DNA of 60,958 nt from Lachnospiraceae bacterium (GTDB taxonomy: Bacteria; Bacillota; Clostridia; Lachnospirales; Lachnospiraceae): positions 1 to 60,958 of the forward strand of contig JAAUZY010000054.1 in NCBI GenBank assembly GCA_014804355.1, read 5' to 3'. This document shows positions 14,475 to 53,296 of the stretch, in pieces; within the stretch, counting starts at the first letter, position 1, and each line of letters begins with the position of its first letter. The notes beneath the pieces were generated by a model. It was not told the origin of the DNA and did no database searches. It saw only the letters and a list, made by a program, of their open reading frames with translations. Both the position numbers and the translations under genes were made by a program.

Positions 14475-14542
14475 CTTATGCGGTGTGCTCATTATGTTGC
14501 AATCTTGTAATTATTGTTTTTCATAGATTATCTAAGACGGAC

Positions 14543-14678
14543 GCGCAGAGGGAAGTTAATATCTACGGAGTCGCGCTTCCGCTCCGTAAAAAGCGTAACG
14601 GGCACTAAGTTCGAAAAAACCTCACTAAGTGCCGACGCTTTTTAAGGGACTCCTTAAGATATTAACTTCCCTCTACGC
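14543..14678. repeat. Nested palindromic element, single copy
   Basis: Outer arms of 22 nt (14543-14564 and 14657-14678) match with one mismatch. Inside, AAAAAGCGT pairs with ACGCTTTTT and GGCACT with AGTGCC around a short loop, and ACGGAG/CTCCGT forms a side hairpin. No coding frame or transposase is associated. It lies between the murE promoter and the larger element at 14753. It may be a small mobile palindrome or a structured RNA. Confidence 0.6.
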
Positions 14679-14752
14679 TGGGTGTCGGATCAGCCTAGAC
14701 AGTTATTTCCCCAAATTCGGGGGTCACAAGGATACATGAATAAACTTGAATA

Positions 14753-15011
14753 GGCAGATTGCACAAAAGGTTCTCGAAGCTGTCCTGCGTAGGAGATTGA
14801 GATTTTCTTAGTATTCCGTATACAAAATAGCAATTTCATGGGACGTGCTTATTATCCTAAAGGATAATAAGCTGATGTCCCGAAAAGCCCGACATGAGCC
14901 CGGATGGCGAATAGAGGGCGGTTGCGTCCGGCATCACAGCTTACGCCGGAATACTTAGAAAATCCATTCGACGTAGCCCAACAGCTTCGGGAACCTTTTG
15001 TGCAATCTGCC
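14753..15011 (-). ncRNA. Candidate structured RNA / palindromic element, copy 1
   Basis: A 259-bp element bounded by GGCAGATTGCACAAAA and its exact complement. Arms of about 65 nt pair along most of their length. A core beginning CGAAAAGCCCGAC and containing TGAGCCCGGATGGCGAAT is almost identical to copy 2 at 53066-53296. The GGGAC/GTCCC stem (14840-14881) carries an extra 11-bp hairpin (14847-14872) absent from copy 2. Between copies, both arms change together (GG to TA; G to A before TATTCCG), keeping the pairing. On the minus strand TTTGCTATAGT ends 11 nt before the boundary and could be an extended -10. It lies outside both neighbouring transcripts. I cannot match it to a named RNA family; a MITE is the alternative. 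Confidence 0.55.
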
Positions 15012-53065: not shown

Positions 53066-53296
53066 GGCAGATTGCACAAAATATTCTTGAAGCTGGCATG
53101 CGGAGGAATATGAGATTTTCTTAATATTCCGTTCGATATCCAGAAATTTCGGGACACGGATGTCCCGAAAAGCCCGACCTGAGCCCGGATGGCGAATGTC
53201 GGGCGGTTTCGTCCGCATCCACAACTTCACCGGAATATTTTAGAAAATCCATATGACGCAGCCCGCCAGCTTCGAGAATATTTTGCGCAATCTGCC
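53066..53296 (-). ncRNA. Candidate structured RNA / palindromic element, copy 2
   Basis: A 231-bp paralogue of the element at 14753-15011. It has the same GGCAGATTGC boundaries, the same core and the stem GGGACA-CGGA-TGTCCC (53151-53166), here with only a 4-nt loop. In the core GCCCGAC and GTCGGGC can pair over 7 bp. Arms differ from copy 1 by matched changes. On the minus strand TTTGATATAAG ends 7 nt before the boundary, like TTTGCTATAGT in copy 1. It stands between the gpmI terminator and the gntR promoter, so it would need its own transcription. Family unknown to me; a non-coding mobile palindrome is the alternative. Confidence 0.55.

Follow-up and report, generated by a model that had tools for sequence, protein, structure and literature searches.

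Two hairpin elements in the 60,958 nt window (the whole stretch of DNA analyzed here, contig JAAUZY010000054.1 of a Lachnospiraceae bacterium) belong to RF01731, the TwoAYGGAY RNA family. The best account of them, leaving aside titration of CsrA, is a mobile MITE-like element that carries a plus-strand, CsrA-binding RNA core, and the probability of this reading is put at about 0.7. TwoAYGGAY has been catalogued since 2010 and its function is unexplained; what is new in the window is the context of this RNA.

The TwoAYGGAY elements of the window

Copy 1 spans positions 14753–15011 and copy 2 positions 53066–53296, both given on the plus strand. The shared boundaries described in an earlier note on this DNA are present, with GGCAGATTGC beginning at 14753 in copy 1 and at 53066 in copy 2, and the complementary sequence finishing at 15011 and 53296, respectively. 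The two elements form one family, as 194 of 227 aligned positions are identical and the alignment score is 128.6 (the maximum in 200 shuffles is −7.5). Both fold strongly, with z values of −13.5 for copy 1 and −12.1 for copy 2 and 0 of 200 shuffles equally low. The sequence and fold of copy 1 show an outer stem with its 5′ arm at 14753–14784 and its 3′ arm at 14980–15011. The RNA core between them is at 14785–14979, and the core of copy 2 is at 53098–53264.

A cmscan search against Rfam 15 matches both copies to the full length RF01731 model (positions 1–168) on the plus strand. The scores are 73 bits for copy 1 and 113.8 bits for copy 2, far above the gathering cut-off of 43, and membership in the family is virtually certain. 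The model leaves out the outer arms of approximately 32 bp as well as the transposon ends. Rfam matches to MIR8562 (36.1 bits, cut-off 211), algC, DLG2-AS1_2 and L20_leader are below cut-off and were discarded. The elements had been proposed as a candidate new minus-strand ncRNA family. The analysis supports a structured RNA built around a conserved core, however the family is a known one and the plus strand is better supported.

Copy 2 has AYGGAY-type loops in both of its hairpins. Hairpin 1 (53150–53167) displays the loop ACGGAT with GGA at 53158–53160, and hairpin 2 (53172–53204) the loop CGGAT with GGA at 53187–53189; both are predicted CsrA sites. In copy 1 only hairpin 2 (14887–14919, GGA at 14902–14904) has a loop of this type. 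Unlike the RF01731 model, hairpin 1 of copy 1 (14840–14881) has an 11-bp stem extension, 14847–14857 pairing with 14862–14872, which removes one GGA loop. The extension is unique to copy 1 within the window, as had been observed; however hairpin 1 is also extended in other copies, 8 among the 174 examined in total, and these are confined to the genome of the window (G000) and that of a sister species (G027).

The matched arm changes between the copies (GG/CC versus TA/TA, T/A versus G/C, G/C versus A/T) are all found in the sequence, and on the minus strand each copy has TTTGnTATA just beyond its right end. An additional covariation claimed for TGATG/CATCA versus GGATG/CATCC did not hold up: the Rfam structure has no such pair, and GATGTCC pairs inside hairpin 1. 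A separate observation concerns the 5′ part of the core (14791–14811 and 53104–53124), which resembles a ribosome site followed by a four-codon frame. The frame is AGGAATATGAGATTTTCTTAA in copy 2, while copy 1 has it with TTG and TAG, and many copies show a similar arrangement.

Weinberg 2010 (PMC2864571) presents TwoAYGGAY as a probable RNA and marks cis-regulation as ‘n’ (probably not). PMC4333381 predicts CsrA binding of TwoAYGGAY by motif matching and mentions tandem GA pairs, the Rfam 15 paper (PMC11701678) reports two added covarying pairs for RF01731, and PMC4383904 gives a general description of the CsrA motif. No report placing TwoAYGGAY in a transposon was found among publications judged by titles and abstract openings.

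Terminal repeats and target duplication

Intact relatives of the element end in GATTCGGGTGTCAAAAGG...CCTTTTGACACCCGAATC, outside of the arms. The outer limits given in the earlier note are those of the hairpin, and the mobile element of intact relatives is about 35–45 bp longer on each side. Of the 125 copies from the genus, 32 keep both inverted ends, each with no more than 5 mismatches over 18 positions, and the usual total length is ~304 bp. Best-end mismatches of 3 or fewer are found in 60 of 247 real flanks from the genus vs. 1 of 1235 shuffled flanks. Identity between the outer flanks peaks at 7 bp, where it is 0.585 compared with 0.376 in shuffled flanks (maximum 0.473 in 200 shuffles); at duplication lengths of 5, 6, 8, 9 and 10 bp flank identity is within the range of the shuffles. 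Seven among 37 copies with 6 or fewer mismatches show perfect 7/7 duplications (G017 C104, G017 C92, G032 C7, G013 C21, G028 C9, G032 C12 and G001 C47). The element in this genus is very probably a MITE.

These ends are absent from other genera: across 28 genomes, 0 of 94 flanks have fewer than 7 mismatches, which is the chance level. The RF01731 core is nevertheless present in other genera without these ends.

In the window, copy 1 displays an eroded left terminal inverted repeat at 14714–14731 with 3 of 18 mismatches to GATTCGGGTGTCAAAAGG, and no recognizable repeat at its right end (8 mismatches, chance level). Copy 2 shows no recognizable terminal inverted repeat on either side (9 and 9 mismatches). 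The ends of the window copies are eroded, and these copies appear to be old and decaying.

Several coreless elements of 50–95 bp with the same inverted ends were also observed (L138 3025–3095, L132 2717–2803, L143 3011–3060, L142 2989–3076 and L146 3259–3353). The ends can therefore move or persist without the RNA. In G238 (loci L194–L196) the outer stems, judged by eye, exceed 70 bp, have one purine-rich arm and vary between copies.

A probable partner insertion sequence

The end sequence led to a 472 amino acid transposase frame in G011 that has a DUF772 match. Its score against the IS1182 model is 92.5 bits, which is below the cut-off of 270, and the transposase family is a common one (of 7997 database proteins scored, 2822 match at E ≤ 0.001). 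In one scan of genome contigs, 13 transposase loci were detected and the ends of 11 inspected. Matching left ends are found at L250 (identical with the query locus), L251, L255, L256, L257, L260 and L262; L253 and L261 have no matching left end, and the L258 sequence ends early. Both ends together with a perfect duplication were verified in one IS, that of Lachnospiraceae KH1T2, which is 1854 bp long, ends in GATTAGGGTGTCAAAAGG and GATTAGGGTGTCAAAAGA and displays a perfect CTTATAG duplication on both sides. A transposase relative in G068 (50%) with a different inner repeat raised the suspicion that the shared ends are foreign to the IS, and the KH1T2 copy ruled this out. Transposase matches are present in 5 of 60 genomes of the genus, 3 of them strong, and none was detected in G000.

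With the same ends and the same duplication length, mobilization in trans is the natural inference, i.e. an IS1182-like transposase appears to have moved the TwoAYGGAY element. The scarcity of transposase matches in the genus, and the lack of one in G000, speaks against it. The earlier note had considered a MITE unlikely, and its RNA proposal was to fall if target-site duplications and an autonomous transposon sharing the ends came to light. Both are found in relatives, although neither at the window copies, and the RNA core retains its support.

The element is similar to MITEs mobilized by IS1182-like insertion sequences in sharing its ends and a 7-bp duplication with a transposase-coding element. 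Ordinary MITEs are taken as relics without a selected interior, whereas the TwoAYGGAY element carries a conserved structured RNA core. It is also similar to REP and BIME sequences in that it is intergenic, multi-copy and palindromic. The hallmarks of REP sequences are a GTAG foot and a RAYT transposase; the TwoAYGGAY ends in this genus differ in being of the terminal inverted repeat type with target duplication.

Copy number and distribution

The genome of the window has 21 RF01731 copies. In a survey of 61 genomes RF01731 is found in 21, all within the genus and with 1 to 27 copies each, and 16 of the 37 genus genomes are without it. In a sample of the order, where 7 candidates were scored per genome so that copy counts saturate, 34 of 392 genomes (32 over cut-off) and 19 of 173 genera have the family. 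In a phylum sample with 6 candidates scored per genome, matches are present in 51 of 398 genomes (34 over cut-off) and 41 of 267 genera. The oriented set of 174 copies comprises 127 from 22 genomes of the genus and 47 from 28 others; by source, 125 are from the 61-genome survey and 49 from the order survey.

Among the matches listed, at least 9 divergent pairs (minus then plus) lie within 1.5 kb, vs. 2 tandem and 0 convergent pairs. Divergent pairs are seen in G382, G401, G378, G362, G443, G132 and G036 (L179–L186, L064). The members are 0.3–1.1 kb apart; a composite transposon was ruled out, since the spacer open reading frames share no gene.

Turnover between sister species

Fourteen orthologous copies are shared by G000 and G027, 12 in the same orientation and 2 inverted in place. 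At the first inversion (G000 C47:6113, G027 C149:5445) the cores are identical at 161 of 167 positions in the RNA sense and both flanks are swapped. At the second (G000 C9, G027 C204) the core identity is 141 of 166, and the flanks are supported one by BLAST and both by pairwise alignment. An apparent occurrence of the core in either orientation within a fixed target was an artefact of minus-strand loci that had not been turned, and was ruled out.

Ten unshared sites were tested, comprising the complete set of 7 in G000 and 3 out of the 13 in G027. At seven of the 10 the other species is without a core, and 3 (C1, C5 and C16:11901) are uninformative. The sister site of C8 is without the core between CGAAGC repeats and retains the arms; that of C43 lacks the core together with most of the stem, and at that of C39 the left end alone remains. 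The sister sites of C15 and of G027 C6 have a copy of another repeat, and those of G027 C265 and C60 lack the element and have altered flanks. Core loss at sister sites indicates that single copies are dispensable.

A second structured repeat is present in the window at 14536–14690 on the plus strand; the region 14530–14760 folds at z −7.0 and the repeat has no Rfam match. With 40 candidates scored in each genome, at least 44 matches are found in G000 and at least 46 in G027. A copy of it replaces the TwoAYGGAY element at two sister loci, and in G011 a repeat with a similar start is found to the left of many TwoAYGGAY copies.

Genomic placement

Copy 1 is flanked by a Mur ligase gene and a RecJ-like gene, and copy 2 by genes for a GntR regulator and iPGM, all on the minus strand. 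Neighbors of 163 copies, called crudely from open reading frames, are both opposite to the RNA in 79 cases and both with it in 29, with 31 convergent and 24 divergent. When neighbor open reading frames of at least 150 aa are taken and 20 orthologous or duplicate copies are listed for dropping, the genus shows 59 copies with both neighbors opposing the RNA vs. 15 with both on the same strand (p = 3e-7), together with 9 convergent and 12 divergent; the comparable numbers for other genera are 13 opposing vs. 9 same strand. A cis-regulatory leader would be expected upstream of its gene and on the same strand; the right neighbor is co-directed with the RNA in 53 of 163 copies. The median gap between the core and the right-hand open reading frame is 132 bp. 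The excess of opposing neighbors speaks against a leader role, and in this genus the placement fits selection against having the plus strand within host transcripts. Promoter capture by insertion into −10 boxes found no support, as insertion sites show no promoter enrichment.

RNA and DNA level conservation

The outer arms differ greatly between copies, yet they match within each copy. In the genus, where 124 of 127 stems met the filter, arm mismatches are G-U in 27 and A-C in 38 distinct contexts (p = 0.21), and in other genera (45 of 47 stems) G-U in 35 and A-C in 19 (p = 0.04). Strand-neutral mismatches, together with flipping and loss, suggest that DNA-level events are the main means of keeping the arms matched. 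Thus the compensatory arm changes that had been offered as evidence of RNA are present but weak as such evidence; because the mismatches in the genus are strand-neutral, and the segment between the arms flips or is lost, the arm changes alone are no proof of RNA. An earlier count with an A-C excess (p = 1.6e-6) was dropped, since it extended past the stem into the flanks.

Hairpin 1 shows 13 G-U vs. 1 A-C mismatches (p = 0.0018, neutral scoring, 171 cores), which is the pattern of a plus-strand RNA. A previous count of 11 vs. 0 (70 rows) was dropped as its scoring favored G-U. The hairpin 2 mismatches (G-U 10, A-C 19, other 113) lean the other way but are confounded by an A.G/G.A internal loop, and were not used for strand. 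The loop GGA is present in 87 of 100 distinct hairpin 1 sequences with 29 different stem tops, and in 119 of 133 distinct hairpin 2 sequences with 28 different stem tops. These hairpin counts leave out 3 cores with N and the extended copies (8 for hairpin 1 and 3 for hairpin 2, all from G000 and G027). GGA loops exist on the plus strand only, and the core is in all likelihood a plus-strand RNA. Uniform selection is contradicted by G036, where hairpin 1 has CGA instead of GGA in 16 of 18 copies. Extended hairpin 1 copies, e.g. copy 1 of the window, lose the GGA site. Both observations count against the favored account.

Association with CsrA

A CsrA site has the shape A-N-GGA-N in a loop, and the host encodes CsrA (match at G000:C29). 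In the order sample CsrA is found in 225 of 392 genomes, i.e. in 34 of 34 RF01731-positive vs. 191 of 358 negative genomes (p = 3e-9), or by genus in 19 of 19 positive vs. 90 of 154 negative genera (p = 9e-5), and in the phylum sample in 49 of 51 positive vs. 236 of 347 negative genomes (p = 4e-6), where the genomes are not independent of each other. The positives without CsrA are G629 (six matches, the best over cut-off, 94% complete) and G682 (one marginal match, 75% complete). Within the genus CsrA does not discriminate, being present in 21 of 21 RF01731-positive and 15 of 16 negative genomes. Flagellin is present in 43 of 43 RF01731 positives checked, out of 54 in the genus and order surveys, and the association with CsrA could therefore reflect motility instead. 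Binding of CsrA by TwoAYGGAY RNA, as predicted from the loop motif, is considered more likely than not.

CsrB, CsrC and RsmXYZ resemble TwoAYGGAY in that stem-loops display GGA in the loop and the host has CsrA. The CsrB architecture is one or few loci with many sites. TwoAYGGAY differs in having two predicted sites in each RNA and some 20 copies scattered over the genome. We know of no CsrB-type RNA in flagellated Clostridia. By analogy, collective titration of CsrA is a possible role, although this is regarded as tentative.

Discussion

A purely DNA-level selfish element, with the hairpin selected for transposition and the core serving as a transposase or host-factor site, is an unlikely explanation. 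It agrees with the strand-neutral outer-arm mismatches of the genus (G-U 27, A-C 38, p = 0.21), with cores inverted at 2 of 14 shared loci and lost at sister loci, and with a plus strand that opposes co-directed flanking genes in the genus (59 vs. 15). However hairpin 1 favors G-U by 13:1 and the loops stay A-N-GGA-N while the stems vary, and since the core is found in other genera without these ends, the ends do not explain its conservation.

An independent ncRNA from the minus strand, as first proposed, is favored by the TTTGnTATA found outside both right ends on that strand and by the fact that minus is co-directed with most of the co-directed flanking gene pairs in the genus; the A-C mismatches of the genus outer arms slightly exceed G-U, although not significantly, and hairpin 2 has A-C 19 vs. 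G-U 10, a confounded count. The hairpin 1 asymmetry points to the plus strand, as do the outer arms in other genera (G-U 35, A-C 19, p = 0.04), and Rfam models the plus strand, which makes the minus-strand proposal very improbable. A leader in which each copy controls the same-strand downstream gene is suggested by the Rfam type label of RF01731 (Cis-reg) and by the intergenic location of the copies, with the median of 132 bp to the right-hand open reading frame. It is the least probable of the explanations considered, as the right neighbor is on the RNA strand in 53 of 163 copies, both-opposing outnumber both-with neighbors 59 to 15 in the genus with orthologues dropped, both window copies sit between minus-strand genes, and the ‘n’ for cis-regulation in Weinberg 2010 (PMC2864571) is contrary to it.

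The mobile MITE-like element with a plus-strand RNA core would operate as follows. An IS1182-like transposase would move the element in trans, and the long arms would stay matched mainly by DNA-level events, i.e. inversion and template switching between the arms. The core would be selected as a plus-strand RNA, and the two stem-loops of the transcribed core would present A-N-GGA-N to dimeric CsrA. The ~20 copies together may titrate CsrA, as CsrB-type RNAs do elsewhere. A more speculative and somewhat doubtful extension is a transposable CsrA sponge with a decoy RNA as its cargo, spread by an IS1182-like transposase in one genus and by other routes elsewhere, in which the number of copies would determine how active CsrA is in flagellated Clostridia.

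For an RNA that has lacked an assigned role from its listing in 2010 onward, carriage as mobile cargo explains the patchy distribution in the genus, 0 to 27 copies in 37 genomes. The outer-arm covariation of TwoAYGGAY is partly a DNA effect and calls for caution. If the CsrA link is true, transposon copy number would tune a global regulator.
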